NCBI RefSeq assembly: GCF_021172045.1
Contig: NZ_CP087164.1
Location: 2,046,001 to 2,110,000, forward strand
Direction: 5' to 3'
Source of the DNA: Capillimicrobium parvum
Lineage (GTDB): Bacteria > Actinomycetota > Thermoleophilia > Solirubrobacterales > Solirubrobacteraceae
DNA length: 64,000 bases
Shown here: one piece after another, positions 3,546 through 18,918 of the stretch
Numbering within the stretch: the stretch's first letter is position 1
How the letters are laid out: every line of letters starts with the position of its first letter
The notes under the pieces: model-generated
What the model was told of the DNA's origin: nothing
The model's database searches: none
The model's input: only the letters and a program-made list of their open reading frames with translations
Made by a program: the position numbers and the translations under genes

Positions 3546-4250
3546 GCCTACGTGCCGGGACGAGCCTGGCGGCCGGCCTGCCGTACCCGCACCGAAGGCG
3601 AGCGCCGACTCATCGGGGCTGAGGCGGGTCGCCCGCTCGTGACGTGCCGCTGCTCTCGATCCGCTCGAGGGCGCCGAGCAGCTGACCTTCGAACTCGGCG
3701 CCGGGGGCGACGCGACAAGCGTGGAGCTGGACGTTCGGCCTCATGCGAACAGCCTCGCACGGATGGGCCGCTCCTGCCTCATCCACATGGGATGACCTTC
3801 GTCGCTGATCGCGCAGCCGTTCAGCACGATGAGCCGCAGCGGGACCGATGACCCGGTAGCGGGCACATCGAAGAGCCGGCTGCGCGATTCCGTCGGCGAA
3901 GCGGCCGCCCTCGAGTGCGCGGTGGCCCACGAACAGCATCGTGGCCACCGGCGTGGCGCGCCGCGACGATGCCCCGGACCGGCCTCCGCCCGGCGGACGG
4001 GGGAGGCGGTGCCGGAACCGTGCGCGCGTACCGCGAGGCGATGCGCCGGTTCGCCGAGCTCGGGCATCGGGAGCGGGCGCTCAGCTGACGCGCGACGGCG
4101 GGCGGCGTCCAACCGCGGAGAGGACGCGTCGCGCGGCGCGAGAGCTACAGGCCGCGCGTGTCGACGCGGGAGGCGCTGACATCAGCCTCCCGCTGTGCGC
4201 CGGCATGGCTCGGGTCGTGTCGGTGTGATGGCATGGGGGACACCTCTTCG
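3546..4250. other. Decayed stretch without an intact gene
   Basis: About 700 bases without a convincing gene. On the minus strand, 3741-3948 carries two pieces in different frames that could join: TMLFVGHRALEGGRFADGIAQ and then LFDVPATGSSVPLRLIVLNGC, ending ISDEGHP. The GHRALEGG and LIVLNGC elements resemble the core of CHAT protease domains (VGHG and VVLNAC strands), so this may be a CHAT remnant. On the plus strand a 39-codon frame (3969-4088) ends YREAMRRFAELGHRERALS, a natural-looking helix with no known family. A run of minus-strand Arg/Ala-rich frames beyond 4000 looks like antisense noise. Confidence 0.3.
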
Positions 4251-5492
4251 TCAGCTGTCGGGCGTGGTACGGACCCTCGACGGTGAGACCAGGGGCGGTG
4301 CGGGGTTGTGGTGCTGGGCGGCGACGCCGCGCTCGAGCACCTCGTCGGCTGCCGCCTCGCTGAGCCCGGCCTCCAGCAGGAGGGCGCGCGAGTGCGCGCC
4401 GAGCGCAGGGACGTCGCCCATCGGTGCCTCGAAGTCCTGGAATGTCGCCGGCGGCAGAAGCGCGTCGATCCGGGCGAACTCGGTCCCGATCGAGCGCCAG
4501 CGCTCGCGCGCTCGGAGCTGGGGGTGCTCGACGACCTCGGCAAGCTGCTTGACCTGGGCGGCGGGGACTCCTGCGCTTGCCAGTCGGGCATCGAGCTCGG
4601 CGGTCGTCCACTCCCGGGTGCGCCGCGCGACCTCGGCGTCGCACTCGGCACGGTTGCTGACCCGCTGGACGTTCGTGGCGAAGCGTTCGTCACACGCAAG
4701 CTCGGGTGAGTCGAAGACCTCGGTGACGAGGTCCCGCCACCCGCGGTCGCTCTGGACGCCGATGAGCATCTGCCCGTCGCGGGTCGGGTAGGTGTCGTAG
4801 GGGGCGATGGACGCGTGACCTACCCCCATGCGCGGCGGCTGTCGCCCGGTGTGCAGCTGGGTGTACAAGGCATGGCCCATCCACTCGATCGTTGCGTCCA
4901 GCATCGAGACCTCGATGGTCGCGCCCTCCCCGGTCCTGGCGCGGCGCAGGAGCGCCGCGAGCACCGACTGGGCGCAGTACATGCCGGCCGCGATGTCGGC
5001 GGTCGGGATACCGGTCTTCACCGGCTCGTCGGTGGTGCCGGTGATCGAGATCAGGCCGGCCTCGGCCTGGATGAGCATGTCGTAGGCCTTGCGCTGGGCC
5101 ATCGGGCCAACGCTGCCGTAGCCGGACAGGTCGACCACGACCAGGCCGGGGTTGTCCGCACGGAGGGCCTCGGCGTCGAGGCCGAGACGCGATGCCGCTC
5201 CGGGCGCGAGGTTCTGGACGAACACGTCCGCCTGGCTGATGAGTCGCCGGACGACGTGGATGCCGTCCGGAGACTTGAGGTCGATCGCCAGCGATTCCTT
5301 GCCGCGGTTGAGCCAGACGAAGTGCGCCCCCGTGCCTTCGACCACGTGGTCGTACCCCCGCGCGAGGTCGCCATCCCCGGGTCGCTCGACCTTGATCACC
5401 CGCGCGCCGAGGTCGCAGAGGTTGCGGGTCGCGAGCGGCACCGCGACCGCCTGTTCCAGAGCGACCACCGTGTGGCCCTCGAGGGGCAGCAT
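4251..5492 (-). CDS. CaiB/BaiF CoA-transferase family III protein
   Basis: A 413-residue class III CoA-transferase. Family marks are EQAVAVPLATRNLCDLGARVIKVERP at the N-terminus, LNRGKESLAIDLK, VFVQNLAPGA, DLSGYG and the segment TADIAAGMY, in which the Asp (about residue 166) is the expected acyl-anhydride nucleophile. The small domain ends with EHPQLRARERW. These enzymes move CoA between carboxylic acids, often to activate a substrate for beta-oxidation. The start ATG at 5492 overlaps the stop of the upstream acyl-CoA dehydrogenase (TGATG), so the two are translationally coupled. The pairing implies that the transferase makes the acyl-CoA that the dehydrogenase oxidises. The C-terminal 25 residues are Pro/Arg-rich and poorly conserved. 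Confidence 0.9.
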   Translation of the reverse strand: MLPLEGHTVVALEQAVAVPLATRNLCDLGARVIKVERPGDGDLARGYDHVVEGTGAHFVWLNRGKESLAIDLKSPDGIHVVRRLISQADVFVQNLAPGAASRLGLDAEALRADNPGLVVVDLSGYGSVGPMAQRKAYDMLIQAEAGLISITGTTDEPVKTGIPTADIAAGMYCAQSVLAALLRRARTGEGATIEVSMLDATIEWMGHALYTQLHTGRQPPRMGVGHASIAPYDTYPTRDGQMLIGVQSDRGWRDLVTEVFDSPELACDERFATNVQRVSNRAECDAEVARRTREWTTAELDARLASAGVPAAQVKQLAEVVEHPQLRARERWRSIGTEFARIDALLPPATFQDFEAPMGDVPALGAHSRALLLEAGLSEAAADEVLERGVAAQHHNPAPPLVSPSRVRTTPDS

Positions 5493-6670
5493 CACGCGCC
5501 GTCGGATCGCGCGGCCTTCACGAGCGCGCCGCCGATGATCAGCCGCTGGATCTCGCTCGTGCCCTCGTAGAGACGCAGCAGGCGGACGTCGCGGTAGAGG
5601 CGCTCCACCGGAACCTCGCGCATGTAGCCCGATCCGCCGTGCACCTGCACCGCGAGGTCAGCCGCCCGCCCGGCCATCTCGGTGCAGAACAGCTTCGCGG
5701 TGCTCGGCATGACGCGCCGGTCCTCGCCGGTGACGTAGCGGCGTGCGGCGTCGCGCACCAGCGCGCGACCGGCGTCGAGCCCGACCCTCTGGTCGGCCAG
5801 CATCGCCTGCACCAGCTGGAAGTCCCCGATCGGGGTGCCGCCCTGCGTCGCCGACGCGGCGTACGACACCGACTCGTCGAGCGCACGCTGGGCGCAGCCG
5901 ACCGCGAGCGCGGCGACGTGGACCCGTCCGCGTGCCAGCGACGTCATCGCGGCCCGGTAGCCGACCGCCGCTTCTTCTCCGACGAGCGCCTCGGGGCCGA
6001 CGCGCACTCCATGGAGGAAGACCTCCGCGGTGCCCGAGCCCGCATGGCCCATCTTGGCGTCCTTGCCGCCGACCTCGACCCCCGCCGCATCGGCGGGTAC
6101 GAGGAACACGGCGATACCCGGACCCGTCTCCTGTGCGGGGCGGAGCCGCGCGAAGACGACGAAGAGGCCGGCGTCGGGTGCGTTGGTGACGAACTGCTTG
6201 GACCCGTCGATCACCCAGCCGTCGCCGTCCACGGTGGCCGTCGTGCGCAGCCCGGCGGGGTTCGACCCGGCGCCGGGCTCGGTCAGGGCGAAGGACGCCA
6301 CGACCTCCCCCGAGGCGATGCCCGGCAGCCACCGCGCCTTCTGCTCCTCGGTGCCGAAACCGACGAGCACCTGTCCGGCGATGCCGTTGTTGGTGCCGAA
6401 CATGGAGCGAACGGCGAGCGAGGTGTAGCCGAACTGCATGGCGAGCTCGACGTCCTGGACGAGATCCAGGCCGCCCCCGCCCCACTCCTGGGGGATCGCG
6501 TAGCCGAACAGGCCCATGTCGGCGATCTGCGCCCGCAGGTCGCCCGGGATCGCGTCGGACTGCATGATCTCGAGCTCTCGGGGGACGACCCGGGTCCGCA
6601 CGAACTCGGACACCTGCCTGAGGACGTCAGCGAAGACGTCGTCGGGGACGTCGGGGTTGCCGGTGTACAT
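5492..6670 (-). CDS. Acyl-CoA dehydrogenase
   Basis: A 392-residue flavoprotein. It shows the N-terminal helical domain (DMGLFGYAIPQEWGGGG), the beta-domain flavin motifs FALTEPGAGSNPAG and WVIDGSKQFVTNA, and the C-terminal QVHGGSGYMREVPVERLYRDVR. The catalytic base is the Glu of LYEGTSEIQ (about residue 369). It oxidises an acyl-CoA to the enoyl-CoA, passing electrons to ETF. The ATG at 6670 (MYTGNPDV) is chosen because it gives the normal family length; upstream in-frame codons run into the LysR promoter region. It heads the minus-strand pair with the CoA-transferase and is divergent from a LysR regulator, which probably controls it. Chain length of the substrate is unknown. Confidence 0.92.
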   Translation of the reverse strand: MYTGNPDVPDDVFADVLRQVSEFVRTRVVPRELEIMQSDAIPGDLRAQIADMGLFGYAIPQEWGGGGLDLVQDVELAMQFGYTSLAVRSMFGTNNGIAGQVLVGFGTEEQKARWLPGIASGEVVASFALTEPGAGSNPAGLRTTATVDGDGWVIDGSKQFVTNAPDAGLFVVFARLRPAQETGPGIAVFLVPADAAGVEVGGKDAKMGHAGSGTAEVFLHGVRVGPEALVGEEAAVGYRAAMTSLARGRVHVAALAVGCAQRALDESVSYAASATQGGTPIGDFQLVQAMLADQRVGLDAGRALVRDAARRYVTGEDRRVMPSTAKLFCTEMAGRAADLAVQVHGGSGYMREVPVERLYRDVRLLRLYEGTSEIQRLIIGGALVKAARSDGA

Positions 6671-6689
6671 GGCTCCACTCTGGGTCACC

Positions 6690-6736
6690 ACATTGAGTTC
6701 AGTCCAATACAAAGTGGGTCCGTCTGTAATACTGAA
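6690..6736. promoter_or_regulatory. Divergent promoter/operator between acyl-CoA dehydrogenase and LysR
   Basis: The gap between the divergent genes is unusually A+T-rich for this genome. It contains an interrupted inverted repeat: GTTCAGTCCAATAC on the left and GTAATACTGAAT on the right, whose outer TTCAGT/ACTGAA arms pair exactly and whose inner parts are similar. LysR regulators usually bind such interrupted palindromes upstream of a divergent target, so this is the likely regulator site. Confidence 0.45.
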
Positions 6737-7719: not shown

Positions 7720-9555
7720 TCACCTCTCGGCGGGCTGCTCCGACGCGGGCAGAAGCGCGTCCTCCTCGATGCCGAGCCCTCGCAGCTTGCGATACAGGGT
7801 GGTGCGACCGATGCCGAGCAGGCTGGCAGCCTTCGACCGGTTGCCGTTGGTCTGACGGAGAGCCGCGACGATCTCGGCCCGCTCGGCCAACTGGATCCGG
7901 GTGAAGGTCCGCCGGTGCGCAGCGTCCCACATGCACTCGGGCAGGTGATAGGGGCTCACGGACTGGCCGGGCAGCTCCCGGGCGAGGTCCTCGAGCAGGC
8001 ATCGAAGCTCGGCCACGTTGCCGGGCCAGTGCCACCTCAGGAGCACCTGCAACGTGGCTGCGGACAGGACCGGTCGCCGCGATGGGGCGTCCCGCTCCAG
8101 GAGCGTGTCCACGAGCTTCGGGATGTCCCGGCCGCGACTCGACAGCGGCGGCAGCTCGACTCCCGGCGTGACCTGCACGAGCGCGCCCACGGTCGAGTCG
8201 GTGCACCGGCCCAGGTCGGCGGTGATCACCAGTCGCGCCGGTGACTCGCCGTGCCCGGAGTCCACAGTCGGGGCACTTGAGTCGTCGGGAGCAGCACGCG
8301 CGGCACCCGCGCTGAGTGCCTTGACGGCGTTGACCTGGTTGACGGGCAGGTCCTCCAGCCGCCGGAGCACGACTGCTCCCTTCGCCTCGAGCGCCGCCAG
8401 CGCGTCGCCTCGCCATGATGGGCGGTTCTCGAGGTCGCCGGCGTCGAGCACCAACGGCTCGGGATGACCCACCGAGCGCAGCCATTCGAGGGCGACGTGC
8501 AGCTTGCCCGACCCACTGGGACCGGTCACCGACACCGCCCTCGCGGATCGACCCGCCGCGCGCTGGAGCTGGGCGACGAACGGGTCGTGGAACGTCGGGA
8601 CTGCCCCGCGGGGCCGGGTCCCGGGGGGACGCCGTCGGTTCAGGATCTCGACGGCAAAGGCCGGCTCCTCGCCAACATCGTCGAGCCGGTGGGCCAGGAC
8701 TCGCGTCTGCAGCGCCTGGAGGTCGAGGTCCAGGACGCACGGCCCATGGGACCAGTCCTGGGAGAGCAGCAACTCCCACAGGCGGCCATGGCTCTCGACG
8801 TTGAGGAACGACAGCCCGGTGACGTTGCTCATTACGGTGTCGCTGTTGAGCACGATGACCGGACCCTTGTCCCGGTGCCGTTGGTAGCTGCGCCCGAGGG
8901 CGAGCTCGCGCCGCCCGACGGTCAGGCTCAGGTTGTCTACGATCTGCCGAGCGCCCTCGCGGACCAAGGCCAGCATCATCGTCTCGGCTGCGTCGGCGGG
9001 TGCAGCCAGGGACAGCGAGCCCACCATTCGCCCCGTCGCCGGGTGCCGGATGCCCGCACCGGCGCAGGCGAGGTCCTCGAGGGCATCGTTGAAGTGCTCG
9101 GGTCCGCGCACGAAGACGGCTCCCGCTTCCTGGATGGCGGTACCGAGCCCGTTCGTACCGATGCTCTCCTCGGAGAAGTCGAACCCCTCGGCGGCGCACG
9201 CATTGTCGAACCTGGCCCGTTCGCTGCGTCCAGCGACCCGTCGGGCCACGATCTGGCCCGTTCGGTCCGCCAGGAAGATCGAGGTCCCGAGGTCCTGCAG
9301 CATCCCCTCCAGCCGATCGAGGATCGGTCGCGCGGCGCGACTCAGTTCGCTGTCTGCGTCGAACTCGTTGACGTAGTGGAACGATCCCGGCTTCCGGGTG
9401 GCACCTGCGGTGATCGAGCGCCGCCAGCTCCGGTCGATCTCCCCGGGCAGCCATTCCGAGTTCCACTCGGCATGCATGAGGCCGTTCGAGATGAGGACTT
9501 CCTTTGCCGACCGGACCTCGTCGGCTTCCACGGAGCTGCGGCGCAGACGACTCAT
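7720..9555 (-). CDS. AcoR/MimR-like GAF-AAA-Fis regulator without GAFTGA
   Basis: A 611-residue regulator. The N-terminal third carries a GAF-type sensory domain (ESIGTNGLGTAI, HFNDALEDLACAGAGIRHPATG), as in AcoR and MimR. The middle is a degenerate AAA domain with GPSGSGK as Walker A but no GAFTGA loop, the element that contacts sigma-54. The C-terminus is a Fis-type HTH (NRSKAASLLGIGRTTLYRKL, about residues 565-590). Loss of GAFTGA fits actinobacteria, which mostly lack sigma-54. The ATG at 9555 has TGGAG upstream; a GTG at 9603 is less likely. It is divergent from the esterase/Baeyer-Villiger pair, with two palindromes between, so it most likely controls that operon in response to its substrate. 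MimR regulates monooxygenase genes in mycobacteria in the same way. Confidence 0.88.
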   Translation of the reverse strand: MSRLRRSSVEADEVRSAKEVLISNGLMHAEWNSEWLPGEIDRSWRRSITAGATRKPGSFHYVNEFDADSELSRAARPILDRLEGMLQDLGTSIFLADRTGQIVARRVAGRSERARFDNACAAEGFDFSEESIGTNGLGTAIQEAGAVFVRGPEHFNDALEDLACAGAGIRHPATGRMVGSLSLAAPADAAETMMLALVREGARQIVDNLSLTVGRRELALGRSYQRHRDKGPVIVLNSDTVMSNVTGLSFLNVESHGRLWELLLSQDWSHGPCVLDLDLQALQTRVLAHRLDDVGEEPAFAVEILNRRRPPGTRPRGAVPTFHDPFVAQLQRAAGRSARAVSVTGPSGSGKLHVALEWLRSVGHPEPLVLDAGDLENRPSWRGDALAALEAKGAVVLRRLEDLPVNQVNAVKALSAGAARAAPDDSSAPTVDSGHGESPARLVITADLGRCTDSTVGALVQVTPGVELPPLSSRGRDIPKLVDTLLERDAPSRRPVLSAATLQVLLRWHWPGNVAELRCLLEDLARELPGQSVSPYHLPECMWDAAHRRTFTRIQLAERAEIVAALRQTNGNRSKAASLLGIGRTTLYRKLRGLGIEEDALLPASEQPAER

Positions 9556-9878
9556 CGCCGCTCCAGGCGCTCGGACATCACTCAAGTATGGAGCGCCGGT
9601 CACAGTCCTACGAGATCATAAGGCCGAGTATTGATACCAATCGGGTTCCGATTCATGCGCGACTGACATCAGTTGCCGCGACAACCAGGCGCACCGCATG
9701 CCGGACCCGGCCCCCGACGCCCAGGCCCGCGGGGTGTCTCAGATCGGAACACATCGGTGGCCCTGGGCGCGCTTACCATCGCCGCTTGCAGACACCAGCG
9801 CTGGTGATGCGGCGGGCCCTCACGCCGGCCATCGAACCCCGTCGGGTCTGTCCCGACCATGCGGAAGGAACGTACGAC
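9556..9878. promoter_or_regulatory. Divergent control region with two palindromes
   Basis: A 323-base region with no gene between the GAF-Fis regulator and the esterase operon. It is A+T-richer than its flanks around 9585-9660. Two close dyads stand out: GTATTGATAC at 9628-9637 and AATCGG-GTT-CCGATT at 9639-9653. They are candidate binding sites for the Fis-type HTH. A Shine-Dalgarno-like GGAAGGA lies about ten bases before the esterase ATG. Confidence 0.4.
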
Positions 9879-10793
9879 ATGAACCACCAGGCGCTCGCCG
9901 AGGCGGTCGAGCAGGACCCGGTCAAGGATCTCTACACCGACTGGTCGCAGATCCTCGCCACGACCCCGGATCTCACGATGCGGCTGTTTCGCAGCATCTT
10001 CGACGAGTGGCATCAGCCGACCAAGGAGCCCGAGGACGTCACCTACGCCGAGGCCACGGTCGGCGGCGTGGCCGGGATCTGGTGTCGCCCGGTCGGCGCC
10101 GACTCCTCGCGGGTGCTTCTGTACACCCATGGCGGCGGGTTCGCCGTCGGGTCGGCGTCGAGTCATCGCAAGCTCGCCGCGCATGTGGCGAAGGCGCTCG
10201 GCGTCGTCGCGTTTGTCCTTGATTACCGTCGTGCGCCGGAGCATCCGCACCCGGCTGGCCTTGAGGATGCCGTGTCGGCCTTTCTGGCCCTGACCGAGCA
10301 GGGCGTGGCGCCGGAGAAGATCACCACGATCGGTGATTCGGCAGGCGGCAACCTGGCCGTGGCGACTGCTCTGGCGCTCAAGGACCGCGGTAAGCCGCTG
10401 CCCGGCAGCGTGATCGCGTTCTCGCCGTGGCTGGACATGGAGAACTCGGGTGAGACGCTGCAGACCAACGACGCCACCGATGCTCTGATCACGGTCTCCT
10501 TGCTGGAGGGGATGATCGCCGGCGTCCTGGGTGAGCAGACGAGCCCCACGGCTCCGTTGGCCAACCCGCTGTATGCCGACTTCGAGGGGTTCCCGCGTCT
10601 CTACGTCAACGCCGGCGGTGACGAGTCGCTGCTCGACAACGCCACCCGGCTTGCCGAGTTGGCCAAGGCTGCCGGCGTGGATGTGACCCTCTCGGTCGTC
10701 GACGGGCAGCAGCACGCGTTCCCGATGAACGCCGGCCGGACCGCGGCGGCAGATGACGAGATCGGCCGCGTCGCCAAGTGGTATCTCGCATGA
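9879..10793 (+). CDS. HSL-family esterase/lactone hydrolase
   Basis: A 304-residue alpha/beta hydrolase of the hormone-sensitive-lipase family. The oxyanion motif HGGG is at 84-87, the nucleophile S154 is in GDSAGGN, the acid is D249 (GGDESLLDN) and the base is H279 (QQHAFP). The YRRAPEHPHPAGLEDA segment is also typical. The ATG at 9879 gives the usual length. Its stop overlaps the start of a Baeyer-Villiger monooxygenase (ATGA). Such pairs occur in acetone/methyl-ketone pathways (AcmA/AcmB) and in monoterpene degradation, where an HSL-type epsilon-lactone hydrolase opens the lactone made by the monooxygenase. It therefore most likely hydrolyses the ester or lactone product of the next gene. 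It is cytoplasmic, with no signal peptide. Confidence 0.9.
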   Translation: MNHQALAEAVEQDPVKDLYTDWSQILATTPDLTMRLFRSIFDEWHQPTKEPEDVTYAEATVGGVAGIWCRPVGADSSRVLLYTHGGGFAVGSASSHRKLAAHVAKALGVVAFVLDYRRAPEHPHPAGLEDAVSAFLALTEQGVAPEKITTIGDSAGGNLAVATALALKDRGKPLPGSVIAFSPWLDMENSGETLQTNDATDALITVSLLEGMIAGVLGEQTSPTAPLANPLYADFEGFPRLYVNAGGDESLLDNATRLAELAKAAGVDVTLSVVDGQQHAFPMNAGRTAAADDEIGRVAKWYLA

Positions 10794-12445
10794 GCGGGCT
10801 GAGAGACTCGGACGTCGCCGCGGGCGGCGACTCCCGCGTCGACTACGACGTCATCGTCATCGGCGCCGGATTCGGCGGCATCTACATGCTGCACAAGCTG
10901 CGCAACGAGCTCGGCCTGTCGGTGAAGGCGCTCGAGAAGGGCGGGGGAGTCGGCGGCACCTGGTACTTCAACAGGTACCCGGGCGCCAAGTCCGACACCG
11001 AGGGTTTCGTCTACCGCTACTCGTTCGACAAGGACCTCCTGCAGGAGTGGAACTGGCGCACCCGTTACCTGGATCAGCCGGACATCCTGGCCTACTTGGA
11101 GCACGTCGTCGAGCGCTACGACCTCGGCCGCGACATCGAGCTGAACACCGAGGTGACCGGAGCCACGTTCGACGAGGACATGAGCATCTGGACGATCACC
11201 ACGGCTGACGGCAAGCGGTACACCAGCCGTTACGTCGTCAACGCGCTGGGTCTGCTCGCCCGGACCAACATCCCCGACATCGCGGGCATGGACACGTTCG
11301 CGGGCCGGATGGTGCACACGAACGCCTGGCCGGACGACCTCGACATCACCGGCAAGCGGGTCGGCGTGATCGGGACCGGCTCGACGGGAATCCAGTTCAT
11401 CGTCGCCGCGGCAAAGATGGCCGAGCACCTCACCGTCTTCCAGCGCTCGCCACAGTACGTCGTTCCGTCCGGCAATGGCCCGGTGGATCAGGCGGACGTC
11501 GACCGCATCAAGGAGAACTTCGACGCCGTCTGGGACCAGGTCCGCAGCTCCGTCGTCGCTTTCGGGTTCGAGGAGAGCAGCACCGAGGCGATGAAGGTCT
11601 CCGAGGAGGAGCGGCGCCGGGTGTTCCAGGAGAACTGGGACAAGGGCAACGGCTTTCGGTTCATGTTCGGCACGTTCGCCGACATCGCGATCGATCCGGA
11701 GGCGAACGCTGCCGCCGCGGAGTTCATCCGTTCCAAGATCGGCGAGATCGTGCATGACCCTGAGACCGCGCGCCAGCTCACCCCGACCGACCTCTACGCC
11801 AGGCGCCCGCTCTGCAACGAGGACTACTACGAGACCTACAACCGCGACAACGTCGAGCTGGTCTCGATCAAGGAGAACCCGATCGAGGAGATGACCCCGG
11901 CCGGCGTACGCACCGCCGACGGGGTCGAGCACGAGCTCGACGTCCTGGTCCTGGCCACCGGGTTCGATGCGGTCGACGGCAACTACCGGGCGATGGACCT
12001 GCGCGGCCGCGGCGGGCGGCACATCAACGAGCACTGGACCGACGGCCCGACCAGCTACCTCGGACTGTCGAAGGCCGGCTTCCCGAACATGTTCATGATC
12101 CTCGGACCGAACGGCCCGTTCACCAACCTGCCCCCGAGCATCGAGGCCCAGGTCGAGTGGATCGGCGAGCTCATCGGCCACGCCGAGCGCAACGGCGTAC
12201 AGACCATCGAGCCGACCCCGGAGGCGGAAAGCGGCTGGTCCGCCACCTGCCAGGAGATCGCGAACATGACGCTGTTTCCGAAGGTCGAGTCCTGGATCTT
12301 CGGGGCCAACATCCCGGGCAAGAAGCACGCCGTCATGTTCTACATGGGCGGGCTCGCCAACTACCGCGCCCAGCTCGCCGATGTCGAGAACGACGGTTTC
12401 CGCGGGTTCGCGTTCAACCAGGTGCCTGACGAGGCCCCCGTCTGA
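10790..12445 (+). CDS. Baeyer-Villiger monooxygenase (cyclohexanone monooxygenase type)
   Basis: A 551-residue FAD- and NADPH-dependent enzyme. The FAD Rossmann motif GAGFGG is at 25-30, followed by GGVGGTWYFNRYPGAKSDTE. The Baeyer-Villiger fingerprint FxGxxxHxxxW is complete (F170, G172, H176, W180) and is followed by the NADPH-binding GTGSTG at 195-200. A conserved ATGFD strand near the C-terminal third closes the FAD site. It inserts one oxygen of O2 next to a ketone carbonyl, giving an ester or lactone. The start ATG overlaps the esterase stop, so the two are translated together. This supports a ketone-to-ester-to-acid route; ring or chain ketone cannot be decided from sequence. Confidence 0.93.
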   Translation: MSGLRDSDVAAGGDSRVDYDVIVIGAGFGGIYMLHKLRNELGLSVKALEKGGGVGGTWYFNRYPGAKSDTEGFVYRYSFDKDLLQEWNWRTRYLDQPDILAYLEHVVERYDLGRDIELNTEVTGATFDEDMSIWTITTADGKRYTSRYVVNALGLLARTNIPDIAGMDTFAGRMVHTNAWPDDLDITGKRVGVIGTGSTGIQFIVAAAKMAEHLTVFQRSPQYVVPSGNGPVDQADVDRIKENFDAVWDQVRSSVVAFGFEESSTEAMKVSEEERRRVFQENWDKGNGFRFMFGTFADIAIDPEANAAAAEFIRSKIGEIVHDPETARQLTPTDLYARRPLCNEDYYETYNRDNVELVSIKENPIEEMTPAGVRTADGVEHELDVLVLATGFDAVDGNYRAMDLRGRGGRHINEHWTDGPTSYLGLSKAGFPNMFMILGPNGPFTNLPPSIEAQVEWIGELIGHAERNGVQTIEPTPEAESGWSATCQEIANMTLFPKVESWIFGANIPGKKHAVMFYMGGLANYRAQLADVENDGFRGFAFNQVPDEAPV

Positions 12446-12731: not shown

Positions 12732-13802
12732 ATGACGAGATGGTTCGCATTGCCCGCGGTGATCGCGGCGGTGCTGTTCGCAGGATGCGGCAGCAGCAAC
12801 GACAGCAGCAGTACGAGTGCCGGCACGAGCGCCGGCACGAGCGGCGGGGACTCCGGTCTTCCGGCCGACAAGGGCGGCCCGGGCGCCAAGGTGTCCTACA
12901 TCAGCCCGGTCGCGGCGCAGCCCGGCCAGCAGGAGATCTTCCAGGGCATGAAGGCGGGGGCGAAGGAGCTGGGCTGGGAGGCCGACGTGCTGGACTCGAA
13001 CCTGTCGCCGGACAAGCAGGTGGCGAACGTCGACACCGCGATCACGCAGGGACGCACCGCGATCGCGAGCTTCACGCTCGATCCGGGCGCCGCGGCAGCC
13101 GCGTATACACGCGCGGTCGCGCAGGGCGTCCCGGTCATCGGCATGAACTCCGAGGGCGAGGGCGTCACGTCGACGGTCTGGTTGGAGGTCCTGACGTGCG
13201 AGCCGGGCGGCCCCGGCGAGGCGGACGCAGCGTTCATCGCCAAGAAGACGCCGGGCGCCAAGACCATCGTCATCGGCGGTCCGCCCGTTCCGTCGATCAC
13301 CGCGTCGGTGAAGTGCTTCACCAACGCGGCCAAGAAGCAGGGCCTGAAGATCATCGGCAAGGCCGACAACACGGCCGACACCGCCGACGGCGCACAGCGC
13401 CTCATGCAGGATCTGCTCACCAAGCACCCTGACGTGCAGGCGGTGTGGAACTACAACGACCAGTCCGCGCTGGGCGACTCGGCGGCGATCACCGGAGCGG
13501 GCAAGAAGGTCGCCACCGCGACCGCCGACGGCATCATCGTGGTCGGGCGCAATGGCGACGCCGACGCCATCACCGCCGTCAAGGAGGGCCGGCTGACCGG
13601 AACGTGGGACCTGAACACCGTCGCGTCGGGCCTGGCGGCGATCAAGCAGATGCAGACGGCGCTGAAGGGCGGGGCGGACAAGACGTACCCCGCGCTGACG
13701 GTGAAGTCGACGTTCTACAGCAGCGACAACATCGACACCTACAAGCCGCCGGCCGAGCGTCACGAGACGCTCGACTCGATCCCGCTGACGGGCGGTTCGT
13801 GA
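12732..13802 (+). CDS. Sugar-type ABC transporter substrate-binding lipoprotein (orphan)
   Basis: A 356-residue exported protein. It has a short signal peptide ending in the lipobox LFAGC (lipidated C19), a Ser/Thr/Gly linker to about residue 50, and then a periplasmic-binding domain of the ribose/galactose (Periplasmic_BP_4) class: KVSYISPVAAQPGQQEIFQGM, DTAITQGRTAI, AVAQGVPVIGMNSEG, AVWNYNDQSALG. AGGAGG lies nine bases before the ATG. No permease or ATPase gene follows; a strong hairpin terminator comes 52 bases after the stop, so it is monocistronic. It may serve a transporter encoded elsewhere, or act as a sensor. Its place in the catabolic block suggests an aromatic or terpenoid ligand as readily as a sugar. 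Confidence 0.88.
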   Translation: MTRWFALPAVIAAVLFAGCGSSNDSSSTSAGTSAGTSGGDSGLPADKGGPGAKVSYISPVAAQPGQQEIFQGMKAGAKELGWEADVLDSNLSPDKQVANVDTAITQGRTAIASFTLDPGAAAAAYTRAVAQGVPVIGMNSEGEGVTSTVWLEVLTCEPGGPGEADAAFIAKKTPGAKTIVIGGPPVPSITASVKCFTNAAKKQGLKIIGKADNTADTADGAQRLMQDLLTKHPDVQAVWNYNDQSALGDSAAITGAGKKVATATADGIIVVGRNGDADAITAVKEGRLTGTWDLNTVASGLAAIKQMQTALKGGADKTYPALTVKSTFYSSDNIDTYKPPAERHETLDSIPLTGGS

Positions 13803-13854
13803 GAACCCGGTGAGGCACGCCGTCCAGGATCGTCAGGACGGACCGACCACGAAG

Positions 13855-13882
13855 AAAGCTGCGGCCTCTCGGCCGCAGCTTT
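13855..13882 (+). terminator. Strong hairpin terminator
   Basis: A perfect 12-base stem, AAAGCTGCGGCC paired with GGCCGCAGCTTT around a TCTC loop. The right arm ends in TTT and the left begins with AAA, so it can act in both directions. It lies about 50 bases after the binding-protein stop and ends that transcript. Confidence 0.85.
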
Positions 13883-13982
13883 CGCGTGCACGCCGCGACC
13901 CGATGGAACCAGAACGCGACGTGGACGATATCGGCGCGCCGTCGAGCTGAGATGCCGAGGCAAGACCTGGCGCTGTCTGAAG

Positions 13983-14011
13983 TTGACGTAATTCTTATTA
14001 CTCTGCTATCC
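13983..14011 (+). promoter_or_regulatory. Candidate housekeeping promoter
   Basis: TTGACG at 13983-13988 and CTATCC at 14006-14011 are separated by 17 bases in the most A+T-rich short stretch of this area. The first matches the -35 consensus well, the second the -10 only in part. The pair lies 18 bases before the ATG of the 88-residue protein, so the leader would be very short. Confidence 0.45.
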
Positions 14012-14029
14012 ACCGGGAACGAGTGTCAA

Positions 14030-14296
14030 ATGTGTCCCGTGTGCTTCCTGAAACTCAACGTCCGCAAGGAGGTCGTCGACCCGCTCTCCGACGAGCCGGT
14101 TGGCTACATGACCATGACCGAGACCACGTTCGAGCCGCTCGAGCTCACTGGCGACGAGCAGGAGCAGATCGGCCGCTGCAAGTCGATCGAGCGCGTGCTC
14201 GCTGATGGCACGACGGTCAAGGCGCGCGCCGCGCTGTGGCGGGTCGCCGCCGGCGCCGACGGTACGCCCCGACCGGTCTATGAGGCGGCGGCGTGA
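14030..14296 (+). CDS. Small conserved-looking protein coupled to an alpha/beta hydrolase
   Basis: An 88-residue soluble protein that I do not recognise. It starts MCPVCFLKLN with a CxxC pair at residues 2-5 and has a third Cys at 50 (GRCKSIERV). The rest is acidic in the middle (LTGDEQEQIG) and ends with a basic-hydrophobic strand and an Ala tail. A promoter-like TTGACG-N17-CTATCC lies just upstream. Its stop overlaps the start of the next gene (TGATG), so the two are translated in concert and probably work together. The CxxC could bind metal or be redox-active, but a third and fourth ligand are not obvious. An internal ATG at residue 27 is a less likely start. Confidence 0.65.
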   Translation: MCPVCFLKLNVRKEVVDPLSDEPVGYMTMTETTFEPLELTGDEQEQIGRCKSIERVLADGTTVKARAALWRVAAGADGTPRPVYEAAA

Positions 14297-15168
14297 TGAG
14301 CGGTTTCGATCCGTTCGACGGACGTACGACGCCCGACGGTGGACGCGTCGTGCAGACCGACCGCGTGGCGCTGTGGTGTCACGACGACGGTCGGACGGGC
14401 GAGCCCGTCCTGCTGATCGGTGGCTTCACGGCCGGGCATTTCGTGTTCGACCTCGCCCGGCCGCATCTCGCCCATCACCGCCTGATCACGTGGGAGCCGC
14501 GCGGTCTCGGGCGCTCGGAATGTCCGGACCCGGCGGTCGAGCCGTATTCCGTGGCGATGTGGGCGGACGATCTCCGTGCGCTCATGGACGCGCTCGACCT
14601 GGAGCGTGCCCACATCTGGGCGGTCGGGTTCGGTAGCTACATCGCCCATCGCTTCGCGTCGCAGTACCCGGAGCGTGTGGGCGCGTACGTCACGTACACC
14701 GACGTGTGGGCCGGCGACTCGCAGAAGGGCTATTCGCAGATCTGGGCGGTGTACTCGGCGATCGCGCACAACTTCGGCACGACCGGGTTCGGCGCGCGGG
14801 TGCTCGCCAATGTCTTCGACGTCTCCGATGTGCCGTGGTTCGGCGCGTGGGAGTCGCAGAACATCGAGGAGGTGCTGCATCCGGAGACGGTCGACGCGAC
14901 CGTCGGCTACTGCCTGACGGAGGCCGACGTCCGTGAAGACCTGGCCGGCATCCAGGCGCCGACGCTCGTGCTGCAGGGCAGCCGGACGTGGGACGGGCGC
15001 ACGATCGACCCGTCCGAGGACCCGTCGCTGCAACTGATGCTCGAGCGCGTGAAGCGCATCGAGACGCATCTCATCCCCGATGCCCACCCGGGCTACGTCT
15101 CGGTGCAGAAGCCGGCGGAGTTCGCTGCGGGCGCTCGCGACTTCCTGGCGCGCCACCCGCTGGCGTGA
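14296..15168 (+). CDS. Alpha/beta-hydrolase-fold protein lacking the nucleophile Ser
   Basis: A 290-residue alpha/beta-hydrolase-fold protein. Typical elements are VLLIGGFTAGHFVFD (oxyanion loop), HHRLITWEPRGLGRSE and a C-terminal PTLVLQGSRTWDG, with the expected base in IPDAHPGYV. At the nucleophile elbow, where GxSxG is expected, the sequence is VGFGSY (residues 110-115), with Gly113 at the nucleophile position and Ser only one residue later. This may be an inactive or repurposed fold, for example a cofactor-free oxygenase or lyase type, or one using the shifted Ser. The start ATG overlaps the 88-residue gene's stop. It sits between the binding lipoprotein and the alcohol/aldehyde dehydrogenase pair, so a role in the same catabolic set is likely. 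Confidence 0.82.
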   Translation: MSGFDPFDGRTTPDGGRVVQTDRVALWCHDDGRTGEPVLLIGGFTAGHFVFDLARPHLAHHRLITWEPRGLGRSECPDPAVEPYSVAMWADDLRALMDALDLERAHIWAVGFGSYIAHRFASQYPERVGAYVTYTDVWAGDSQKGYSQIWAVYSAIAHNFGTTGFGARVLANVFDVSDVPWFGAWESQNIEEVLHPETVDATVGYCLTEADVREDLAGIQAPTLVLQGSRTWDGRTIDPSEDPSLQLMLERVKRIETHLIPDAHPGYVSVQKPAEFAAGARDFLARHPLA

Positions 15169-15395: not shown

Positions 15396-16463
15396 ATGCG
15401 CGCATTCGCAGTGTCCGCGGGCAGCACGGCCCTGTCCGAGTTGGAGCTTCCCACTCCCACTCCCACGCCCCAAGGCACGGAGGTGCTGCTGCGCGTCACC
15501 CACTCCGGGGTGTGCCACACCGACACCCATCTGAGAGCCGGCTATTACGACCTCGGACGTCGGGGCAAGCTGCGGCTGGTCGACCGGGGGATTCCCTATC
15601 CCATGACGATGGGCCACGAGGTCGTAGGAGTCGTGGAGGCCGCCGGGCCCGAGGCCGACGGCGTGGAGGCTGGCAGAACCCGGCTGGTCTACCCGTGGAT
15701 CGGCTGCGGCGAGTGCGCAGCGTGCCTCGACGGCCGCGAGAACGCGTGCCCGAAGGGGCGCAACCTGGGTGTCGCCCGCCCGGGAGGCTACGCCGACCAC
15801 ATCCTCGTCCCGCACCCTCGATACCTGCTCGGCATCGGCGACCTCGACCCTAGCTGGGCGGCGACACTGGCGTGCTCGGGGCTCACCGCGTATGCCGCCG
15901 CCAACAAGGTGCTTCCCCTCCCGCCCGAAGCGCCGGTCGTCGTCATCGGCGTCGGCGGCGTCGGGCTGACCGCGGTCGCCACGCTGCACGCGTTGGGCCA
16001 CCGCGCGATCTGCGCCGTGGACCGGGAGGAGGCGAACCTGGCCGTGGCAGCGGAGTTGGGCGCCTCGCTGGCTGTGCCCGCCGGCTCCGGTGACCTCGCC
16101 GCCGACGTGCTCGCGGCGACCGGGCAGCCGGTGGCTGCGGTCATCGACTTCGTCAACAACGAGCAGACGGCATCGGCCGCGTTCGAGGTGATCGTCAAGG
16201 GGGGCCGCATGGTGCAGGTCGGCCTCTTCGGCGGCGAGGTGACGATCCCGACCGCGCTTCTGGCGCTCAAGATGGTCACCATCCAGGGAAGCTTCGTCGG
16301 CACGCTGACCGAGCTCCACGAGGTGGTGGAGTTGGCTCAGCAGGGCCGCGTCCCGCGGATCCCGGTCATCGACGGGAAGCTCAGCCTCGACGGAGTCACT
16401 GATTCCCTCGACCGGCTCGCAGCCGCGGGAGTGGCCGGCCGCATCGTTCTGAAGGGTGAGTGA
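15396..16463 (+). CDS. Zinc-dependent alcohol dehydrogenase
   Basis: A 355-residue medium-chain dehydrogenase. Catalytic zinc ligands are C40 (GVCHTD) and H74-E75 (GHE). The structural zinc is held by C104, C107, C110 and C118, and the cofactor motif GVGGVG is at 185-190. A PTPTPTP run near the N-terminus is unusual but harmless. The ATG at 15396 gives the standard length; GAGG lies just upstream. It oxidises a primary or secondary alcohol with NAD(P)+. The aldehyde dehydrogenase gene starts two bases after its stop, so the pair should take an alcohol to the acid, possibly the alcohol released by the upstream esterase. Confidence 0.92.
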   Translation: MRAFAVSAGSTALSELELPTPTPTPQGTEVLLRVTHSGVCHTDTHLRAGYYDLGRRGKLRLVDRGIPYPMTMGHEVVGVVEAAGPEADGVEAGRTRLVYPWIGCGECAACLDGRENACPKGRNLGVARPGGYADHILVPHPRYLLGIGDLDPSWAATLACSGLTAYAAANKVLPLPPEAPVVVIGVGGVGLTAVATLHALGHRAICAVDREEANLAVAAELGASLAVPAGSGDLAADVLAATGQPVAAVIDFVNNEQTASAAFEVIVKGGRMVQVGLFGGEVTIPTALLALKMVTIQGSFVGTLTELHEVVELAQQGRVPRIPVIDGKLSLDGVTDSLDRLAAAGVAGRIVLKGE

Positions 16464-16464
16464 G

Positions 16465-17835
16465 ATGAGTCGGTATGCGACCGTGGACCCGACCACCGGC
16501 ATGGTGGTAGCGGAGTTCGACACGATGTCCGACGCCGAGGCGGAGCGCTCGGTGGAGAATGCCCACGCGGCGTTCCAGACCTGGCGGCGGACCGACGTCG
16601 CCGAGCGAGCGGCAATCGTGCAGCGCATCGCCGACGGTCACCGTGAGCACGCGGACGAGTTGGCCGCCCTGATGACGCTGGAGATGGGCAAGCCCGTCGC
16701 TCAGGCCAGGGGGGAGGTGGCTCTCGCGGCGTCGATCTACGAGTACTACGCCACCAAGGGGCCCGAACTCCTCGCGGACGAGAAGCTCGACATCGCCGGC
16801 GCGGGCACGGCCGTGGTGCGCACCGACCCGATCGGCGCGCTGCTCGGCATCATGCCGTGGAACTACCCCTACTACCAGGTGGCGCGATTCGTCGCCCCGA
16901 ACCTCCTGCTGGGCAACACGATCCTGCTCAAGCACGCCAGCAACTGCCCGCAGCAGGCGCTGCGCATCGCGGACATCATCGCCGCGGCCGGGAGCCCCGA
17001 CGGCGTCTACCACAACGTCTTCGCCTCCAACGACCAGGTCGCCCGCATGATCGCGCACCCGCTCGTCCAGGGAGTGTCCCTGACCGGTTCCGAACGTGCC
17101 GGCAAGGCGGTGGGCAGCGTTGCCGGCGCCAACCTCAAGAAGAGCGTCCTCGAGCTGGGCGGCTCCGACGCGTTCATCGTCCTCGCCGACGCTGACCTCG
17201 ACATCGCCGCCCGCGACGCCGCAGCAGGGCGCTTCGCGAACGCGGGGCAGGCGTGCACGTCCTCCAAGCGGCTCGTCGTCGAGGACGCAGTCTGGGACGA
17301 CTTCCTCGAGGCATTCCTGGCCTACGCGGAGCAGTGGACCATCGGCAACCCCACCGACGAGGCCACCAGGCTAGGACCGATGTCGTCCCTGGCCGCACGG
17401 GCCGACCTCGTAGCGCAGGTGGAGGACGCCGTGGCCAAGGGAGCCACGGTCCACCTCGGCGGGGTCGTCCCCGAGGGGCCGGGCGCCTTCTACCCGGCCA
17501 CGGTCCTGTCCGGCGTCGACGCCACCATGCGCGCGTACCACGAGGAGCTCTTCGGCCCCGTGGCGGTCGTCCACCGCGCGAGCTCGGCCGACGACGCGGT
17601 ACGGATCGCCAACGACTCTCCCTACGGTCTCGGCGGCGCGGTGTTCAGCAGCGACGAGGCCCGAGCCGCTCACGTCGCAGACCGGCTCGACGTCGGCATG
17701 GTCGGCATCAACACGACCATCAAGAGCGCACCCGACCTGCCGTTCGGCGGCGTGAAGAACTCCGGGATCGGCCGCGAGCTCGGCAGGTTCGGGCTTGACG
17801 AGTTCGCGAACAAGAAGCTGGTGCGAACGATGTAG
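16465..17835 (+). CDS. Aldehyde dehydrogenase (succinate-semialdehyde type)
   Basis: A 456-residue NAD(P)-dependent enzyme. The cofactor region GIMPWNYPYYQ is near 128-138, the general-base Glu is E230 in LELGGSDAF, and the nucleophile is C264 in NAGQACTSS. The C-terminal block PFGGVKNSGIGRELG is typical. The overall pattern, with MGKP near 75 and a short N-terminus, places it with GabD/YneI-like semialdehyde dehydrogenases. The ATG at 16465 (MSRYATVD) lies two bases after the alcohol dehydrogenase stop and has an AGGGTGAG upstream. It should oxidise the aldehyde from the previous enzyme to the carboxylate, the likely substrate of the CoA-transferase further left. Confidence 0.93.
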   Translation: MSRYATVDPTTGMVVAEFDTMSDAEAERSVENAHAAFQTWRRTDVAERAAIVQRIADGHREHADELAALMTLEMGKPVAQARGEVALAASIYEYYATKGPELLADEKLDIAGAGTAVVRTDPIGALLGIMPWNYPYYQVARFVAPNLLLGNTILLKHASNCPQQALRIADIIAAAGSPDGVYHNVFASNDQVARMIAHPLVQGVSLTGSERAGKAVGSVAGANLKKSVLELGGSDAFIVLADADLDIAARDAAAGRFANAGQACTSSKRLVVEDAVWDDFLEAFLAYAEQWTIGNPTDEATRLGPMSSLAARADLVAQVEDAVAKGATVHLGGVVPEGPGAFYPATVLSGVDATMRAYHEELFGPVAVVHRASSADDAVRIANDSPYGLGGAVFSSDEARAAHVADRLDVGMVGINTTIKSAPDLPFGGVKNSGIGRELGRFGLDEFANKKLVRTM

Positions 17836-18090: not shown

Positions 18091-18918
18091 ATGGGAAATG
18101 TGACATACGATTTCACCGGCGAAGTAGTCCTGGTTACCGGCGCCGCACGGGGCATGGGCCGCGAGATCGCGGTGTCCTTCGCACGGGCTGGAGCCCAAGT
18201 GGCAGTCAACGACGTGGACGCCCAGGTGGAGCACGTGCCGTACGCGACAGGCACGGTCGAGGAGCTGGCGCAGACCGTTGCGGACATCGAAGCGCAGGGC
18301 GCCGAGGCGCTCGAGGTTCGTGGCGACCTGCGTCGCGAGGCGGATGTCGAGCGTATGGTCGCCGCGACGATCGAGCGCTTCGGGCGCCTCGATGTGCTCG
18401 TGAACAACGCGGGCGTGTACTCCTGCGGTCCGGTGACCGAGCTCACCGAGGAGCGGTGGGACGTGGTCGTCGACACCGTCCTGAAGGCGCCGTTCCTGTG
18501 CTCCAAGCACGCCGCGCGGCACATGATCGAGCGTGGTGGCGGGGGTCGCATCGTGACGATCTCCTCGACGTCCGCGCTCGTCGGCATCCCGGACCAGGTC
18601 AACTACCAGTCCGCCAAGCACGGCGTCGTGGGCCAGATCCGTACGTTGGCGCTGGAGCTCGCGCCGCACGGCGTTACAGTGAATACGATCTGTCCGACCG
18701 CAGTGGCCGACACGGCCATGCTGGATCACGTCATCGACCTCGGCCCAGAATACTTCGGGAAGGTCAACGCGCTGTGCGGCGCCTCGACGGTGTTCCCCGG
18801 CCTCGATTGCATCGAGACGCGCGACGTGTCGCATGCGGTGCGCTGGCTCGCATCGGACGCGGCACGCTATGTGACTGGCGTTGTGCTGCCGGTGGACGGC
18901 GGATTCAGCTGCAAGTAG
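18091..18918 (+). CDS. Mycofactocin-type short-chain dehydrogenase (carveol dehydrogenase-like)
   Basis: A 275-residue SDR. TGAARGMG (16-23) is the cofactor loop, NNAG lies at 105-108, and the catalytic set is ISSTS (157-161) with Y172 and K176 (YQSAK). Between the first two strands is an extra segment, VDAQVEHVPYATGTVEELAQ (about 42-61). That insertion is the mark of the mycofactocin-coupled SDR subfamily, which includes carveol dehydrogenase; these hold NAD(H) tightly and need mycofactocin to be re-oxidised. The ATG at 18091 is preceded by a 255-base non-coding stretch that must hold the promoter. It would convert a secondary alcohol to the ketone needed by the Baeyer-Villiger enzyme. Confidence 0.85.
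   Translation: MGNVTYDFTGEVVLVTGAARGMGREIAVSFARAGAQVAVNDVDAQVEHVPYATGTVEELAQTVADIEAQGAEALEVRGDLRREADVERMVAATIERFGRLDVLVNNAGVYSCGPVTELTEERWDVVVDTVLKAPFLCSKHAARHMIERGGGGRIVTISSTSALVGIPDQVNYQSAKHGVVGQIRTLALELAPHGVTVNTICPTAVADTAMLDHVIDLGPEYFGKVNALCGASTVFPGLDCIETRDVSHAVRWLASDAARYVTGVVLPVDGGFSCK

Follow-up and report, generated by a model that had tools for sequence, protein, structure and literature searches.

The window analysed here, a 64,000-nucleotide stretch of DNA from the GC-rich bacterium Capillimicrobium parvum, encodes an alpha/beta-hydrolase-fold protein, P0002, in which Gly takes the place of the nucleophilic Ser. The reading that we consider most likely, with a probability of roughly 60%, is that P0002 is a non-hydrolytic, His264-dependent enzyme in catabolism, and that the open reading frame overlapping its start, P0001, is a relic of a ligase/70-aa protein/dehydrogenase/hydrolase run and not a partner of P0002; the next most likely reading is that P0002 is a pseudoenzyme. 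The invariance of the Gly and the His, the loss of the usual acid, the low dN/dS and the relic pieces were taken directly from the sequences. Proteins of this fold receive the name "hydrolase" by default, and the clade to which P0002 belongs cannot use the textbook mechanism.

The nucleophile elbow and conserved residues of P0002

The features of P0002 are as follows.
14296..15168, plus strand: P0002, a 290-aa alpha/beta-hydrolase-fold protein of the Gly-elbow clade (Abhydrolase_1, E 8.8e-13)
14626..14628, plus strand: codon of Gly111 in the nucleophile elbow A-V-G-F-G (Gly in 7/7 clade members)
14701..14703, plus strand: codon of Asp136, near the end of strand beta6 by alignment, candidate replacement acid (Asp in 7/7)
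15085..15087, plus strand: codon of His264, the catalytic-type His in the DAHPG loop (His in 7/7)

HMMER alignments of P0002 to solved esterases (8v16, 6eb3 and 3om8) and to its relatives placed Gly111 in the Ser column of the elbow, in agreement with the preliminary description of a protein with no Ser at the nucleophile position. The residue type given there, Gly, was right but the register was not, as reading GFGSY as GxSxG points to Gly113, two residues away from the correct Gly111. The DAHPG loop had also been described as kept with its His, and His264 indeed aligned with the His of the corresponding 3om8 loop, while Thr231 paired with the Asp of 3om8. A Gly at the elbow excludes the usual acyl-enzyme route via that residue. 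Single-sequence structure models of P0001 and P0002 were unusable (mean pLDDT 58.0 and 35.9).

A second copy of P0002, 86% identical, is present in the same genome at locus L015. The Gly-elbow clade as a whole comprises seven sequences from five genomes, some of them draft assemblies, and the identities of the other six to P0002 were 86, 72, 69, 52, 70 and 52%. Members were present in 4 of 146 genomes of the family (E 1e-40) and in 5 of 232 genomes of the order, where three further genomes gave remote matches. The class sample contained members in 4 of 399 genomes (E 1e-30), plus three genomes with remote Ala-elbow matches, and in a phylum sample of 396 genomes the clade was found only in the window's own genome. 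A wider profile (E 1e-20) matched 21 of 246 phylum genomes at 27 places, and the elbows read there, a reading that leaves out four places in other genomes, had Ser. A plasmid search with P0002 returned four records, all below 31% identity, and a short-pattern scan of named genomes returned one 29%-identical stretch, in Pandoraea. Within openly available papers, no bacterial Gly elbow in proteins of this fold was found. The second hydrolase of genome G429 (L026 1477-2388, minus strand) is an open frame without ATG, GTG or TTG near the expected N-terminus.

Gly111, Phe112, Asp136, Trp232 and His264 were invariant in all seven members. The nucleophile column held Ser in 38 and Ala in three of 41 other aligned rows, which represent fewer genes than rows because the same genes were seen via overlapping loci (L003, L008 and L037), and from which L036, a copy of P0002, was left out. 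Asp was found in the usual acid column of only one of the seven clade members, compared to 29 of the 32 ungapped other rows. In the tree, whose rows were collected with profiles built from the Gly and Ala groups, the Gly members formed one branch (support 100/100) and grouped with the Ala members (support 100/98); a Ser-bearing close relative may possibly exist outside the sample. The two hydrolase copies in the window's genome gave a dS of 0.56 and a dN of 0.086 (dN/dS 0.154). Together, the conserved loss of the nucleophile and a dN/dS of 0.15 are compatible with a non-hydrolytic function, for example that of a cofactor-free oxygenase. The most conserved stretch of the clade was residues 133-217, which lie between core strands 6 and 7 and correspond by alignment to the cap, with 40 of 85 residues invariant, compared to 33 of 109 in residues 24-132 and 17 of 73 in residues 218-290.

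That P0002 hydrolyses its substrate by way of another nucleophile (Ser114 or a pocket Cys or Thr) or of activated water appears unlikely. The best curated model for P0002 was that of the enol-lactonase PcaD (TIGR02427, residues 36-284), although the score of 64.2 bits lies far under the curated cut-off of 255.85 bits. Cys28 was kept in six of the seven members and Thr135 in all, and the clade gene in L016 is adjoined by an M20 peptidase and a metallo-beta-lactamase, with similar neighbours by eye in L017. However, the usual acid is gone in six of seven members, and position 114 reads S, S, S, S, T, S and N across the clade. As Thr or Asn takes the place of Ser114 in two members, this residue was ruled out as a shifted nucleophile, and the missing nucleophile was not refuted.

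P0002 could also be a ligand-binding or scaffolding protein that uses the hydrolase fold without catalysis, in the manner of DPP10. The NDRG proteins are hydrolase-fold members that likewise lack catalysis, and P0002 gave a match to the Ndr family (PF03096) of 16.1 bits, below the gathering cut-off of 23.3 bits. The loss of the nucleophile in seven of seven and of the usual acid in six of seven members is consistent with such a role, and DPP10 is a documented inactive Ser-to-Gly member of the fold. The sister clade of the Gly-elbow proteins points the same way. These proteins (L022, L023 and L024), from another family of the class, are 33-34% identical, their elbow reads WATATGSY with Ala at the nucleophile position, and their His position is Thr, so that the His is also lost, which fits binding or scaffolding. 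On the other hand, His264 and much of the cap are invariant in all seven Gly-elbow members down to 52% identity, beyond what a pure scaffold would need, and P0002-type genes sit among catabolic-type enzymes. We regard a pseudoenzyme as a rather doubtful, if second-ranked, explanation.

The clade has Gly in place of the nucleophile and most of its members lack the usual acid, while the active-site His and a conserved cap are retained. In the preferred reading, that of a non-hydrolytic His264-dependent enzyme, His264, possibly held by Asp136, would be the general base that acts on an intermediate, cyclic or keto, in the catabolism of outside compounds, and no acyl-enzyme would form. We infer that P0002 is an enzyme and that Asp136 is its acid, and likewise the reaction type and the catabolic role. 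A more speculative proposal, in our view improbable, is that the Gly-elbow clade may be a new class of cofactor-free enzymes, in which the His264-Asp136 dyad alone would deprotonate the substrate and Gly would free the oxyanion site for O2 (in a dioxygenase) or for leaving CO2 (in a decarboxylase). The Ala-elbow, His-less sister would then be a second step away from hydrolysis within one lineage. With the Gly clade and its Ala-elbow sister, the path that leads from hydrolysis to a different chemistry, or to no chemistry at all, can be tested on close relatives.

Origin of the 88-residue open reading frame

The pieces that make up P0001, compared with L015, are as follows.
14030..14296, plus strand: P0001, an 88-aa open reading frame beginning MCPVC, read as a deletion remnant
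14058..14100, plus strand: PaaK-like CoA-ligase fragment, in frame (EVVDP..DEPV), 37/43 (86%) vs L015 9501-9543
14102..14199, plus strand: end of the ligase and first part of the 70-aa small gene, 69/98 vs L015 10036-10133
14199..14296, plus strand: last part of the 70-aa small gene, 68/98 vs L015 10163-10260
14294..14298, plus strand: TGATG overlap, the seam lacking the Zn-alcohol-dehydrogenase gene (L015 10257-11297)

P0001 overlaps the 290-aa frame of P0002 as previously described, with TGA at 14294-14296 on ATG at 14296-14298. It had been called Cys-rich, but has just three Cys in 88 residues. In L015, a PaaK-like CoA ligase (8690-10045), a 70-aa protein (10048-10260), the Zn-alcohol dehydrogenase (10257-11297) and the hydrolase (11294-12172) form a tight run. 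Relative to this run, the window is missing about 490 bp of the ligase and its end, about 29 bp between the two parts of the small gene, including the DELPPF stretch, and the whole Zn-alcohol dehydrogenase gene; similarity in the hydrolase resumes at 14305 (85%). A search of the 5.95-Mb genome with a 66-base query (14041-14106) gave the ligase site as the best non-self match (E 1e-7), followed by a match at E 1.2e-3. As controls, 170 43-mers from other window genes matched the ligase at 29 of 43 positions at most, and the PaaK-like ligase had no other match in the window at E 1e-6.

Two other genomes contain parts of the same run. In G026 (L063), a ligase 80% identical to that of L015 is followed by a small gene (64.5% identity over 62 aa); next comes a TPP enzyme, where the contig stops, and a separate contig carries the hydrolase of this genome. 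In G429 (L027), the hydrolase comes immediately after the dehydrogenase. The ligase-small gene order in L063 and the dehydrogenase-hydrolase order in L027 suggest that the four-gene order is older and that the window is derived. The alcohol dehydrogenase gene of G429 (L027 3632-4668) is split over two frames in the draft assembly.

The small-protein family has two intact members, in L015 and L063, and matches to it came from three of the 146 genomes of the taxonomic family, one match being weak. Both intact genes directly follow the ligase (L015 10048-10260; L063 5388-5594), an arrangement thus seen in two genera, and their products share the core DxLPPFAxRNAIKALAALWQxANG; the L015 protein had no Pfam match. 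In P0001, the core DxLPPFAxRNAIKALAALW is not intact, with ten residues missing and the remainder altered. Between the window and L015, dN was 0.38 for the small gene and 0.086 for the hydrolase, while between L063 and L015 it was 0.29 for the intact small genes and 0.22 for the hydrolases of both genomes. The dN/dS of the small genes is based on 57-68 codons and was also high (0.8) for the intact pair, so it is the DNA pieces and the loss of the core, not this ratio, that support a relic.

It had been proposed that P0001 and P0002 form a fixed translational pair with a two-part function, the CPVC protein being a redox or metal-binding partner. The overlap of stop and start, and a P0001 frame that is open from 14030 to the TGATG seam with coding-like codon use, would be expected of such a pair. 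However, the intact small proteins begin MSDTTTG... and MASETAF..., without the MCPVC start, and residues 13-26 of P0001 come from CoA-ligase DNA, with the TGATG as a deletion seam. A search for the pair in other genomes found it at none of the six other clade members. Directly upstream of the hydrolase lies a dehydrogenase in L015 and L027 and an SDR in L017, where the SDR gene occupies the only 480 bp or so before the contig end; L016, L018 and L028 had no same-strand match there, and no small gene was found immediately before the hydrolase at any of the six. Across the same two loci, moreover, the small gene diverged far more in dN than the hydrolase, as given above. A functional two-part system is thus very improbable, and of the preliminary description the hydrolase half stands while the coupled-pair half falls.

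P0001 is instead most likely a scrap left by gene deletions. The PaaK-like CoA ligase and the 70-aa protein, intact in L015 and L063, would be the source of its pieces. Deletions would have fused pieces of the ligase and of the small gene and brought both against the hydrolase start, while the ligase/70-aa protein/alcohol dehydrogenase/hydrolase run, taken as the older state, survives whole elsewhere in the genome. A variant compatible with the main reading is that the P0001 frame, although its protein is a relic, has been retained as a leader whose translation sets that of P0002 by coupling. Given its open frame and coding-like codon use, P0001 may continue to be translated, with the hydrolase coupled to it, but stop/start overlaps of the TGATG kind are common in bacterial genomes; we see such a leader as possible, while leaning against it. 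If P0001 is a relic, it illustrates how gene deletions can create what looks like a credible small protein coupled to a credible neighbour.

The stretch preceding these pieces, 13803-14057, did not clearly match any of the L015 stretches with which it was compared. Against its own genome, the best other match was a 30-base inverted one within the same stretch, and the others had E values of at least 0.06. This self-inverted match of about 30 bases lies at 13854-13883, downstream of a binding-protein gene, and is perhaps a terminator hairpin; a terminator scan listed none. No sigma-70-like promoter before P0001 was found in a scan of 13780-14320. A TTGACG at 13983 was spotted by eye.

Gene neighbourhoods of the Gly- and Ala-elbow genes

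The genes around P0002 in the window include the following.
9879..10793, plus strand: hormone-sensitive-lipase-type esterase with an ordinary GDSAG elbow
10790..12445, plus strand: FAD monooxygenase, Baeyer-Villiger-like (nearest curated model PtlE, 270/1100 bits)
12732..13802, plus strand: periplasmic sugar-type binding protein of an ABC transporter
15396..16463, plus strand: another Zn-alcohol dehydrogenase, 32% identical to the missing one
16465..17835, plus strand: aldehyde dehydrogenase
18091..18918, plus strand: SDR nearest the mycofactocin-coupled type (274 bits vs a curated cut-off of 300 bits)

Elsewhere in the genome, a gene for an MftC-type radical SAM protein of mycofactocin exceeded its cut-off. 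The lipase-type esterase, the Baeyer-Villiger-like monooxygenase and the mycofactocin-type SDR listed above lie close to one another, which led us to consider a limonene-type pathway around P0002; a literature search added nothing specific on this pathway, which we keep as a lead. Upstream of the monooxygenase/esterase pair, we also observed a Fis-type regulator with a GAF domain (7720-9531, minus strand), and a CoA-transferase III and an acyl-CoA dehydrogenase (4251-6712, minus strand).

The other clade loci have different neighbours. L015 includes a P450, a 3-hydroxyacyl-CoA dehydrogenase, two PaaX-type regulators, a TPP enzyme and a cyclase, and L027 an NtaA-family monooxygenase, an SDR and a dehydrogenase. 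An amidase and an ABC transporter lie in L018, and two SDRs in L028. With neighbours varying in this way, no single substrate stands out; judged by gene content, the shared theme of the loci looks like the catabolism of outside compounds.

In the context of the Ala-elbow sister clade (L057, L058 and L059 for L022, L023 and L024), the L058 gene lies beside large and small subunits of aconitase type and an isochorismatase-type amidase; further neighbours are an SfnB/DszC-type flavoprotein, a PrpB-like lyase and a PuuE-like protein. The gene context of L057 resembles that of L058 by eye. The Ala-elbow neighbourhood may represent a previously undescribed catabolic cluster, one member of which is a hydrolase-fold protein devoid of catalytic residues. 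One contig, L059, has two related hydrolase-fold genes (752-1555 and 4019-4819), and between them lie two genes, for 404 and 408 aa, that are alike by eye.

Comparison with HOD, QDO, MKS1, PcaD and DPP10

In published accounts (PMC3961685, PMC10548524), the triads are Ser101/His251/Asp126 in HOD and Ser95/His244/Asp120 in QDO; the Ser can be dispensed with, the His-Asp pair serving as the base, and in AqdC a natural Ala stands at the nucleophile position. P0002 is similar to HOD and QDO in its fold, in a replaced nucleophile and in the retained His (His264, 7/7), and differs from HOD, QDO and AqdC in having Gly instead of Ser or Ala. The distance from the elbow to the Asp is 25 in HOD, QDO and P0002, and that from the elbow to the His is 150, 149 and 153, respectively. 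Column 136 is Asp in all seven clade members and also in 6 of the 41 other rows, which makes the +25 spacing a weak argument. An hhalign comparison of P0002 with HOD (sequence from pAL1) covered columns 32-143 only, at 24% identity, and set Asp136 two residues away from Asp126 of HOD. With an HMM match of 20.4 bits over columns 29-102, no whole-length relation between the two proteins was found.

Tomato methylketone synthase 1 (MKS1) is described (PMC10548524) as a protein without the canonical triad in which the His is kept as the base for decarboxylation. This plant decarboxylase is likened to P0002 by description alone. PcaD provides the best curated model for P0002, but P0002 lacks both the nucleophile and the usual acid. 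DPP10 is described as having a natural Ser-to-Gly elbow in a protein that retains the fold and is inactive. DPP10 and P0002 thus both have Gly at the elbow on a retained fold, but DPP10 differs in being an inactive membrane-anchored S9B peptidase homologue in which the His and Asp of the usual triad are both retained.
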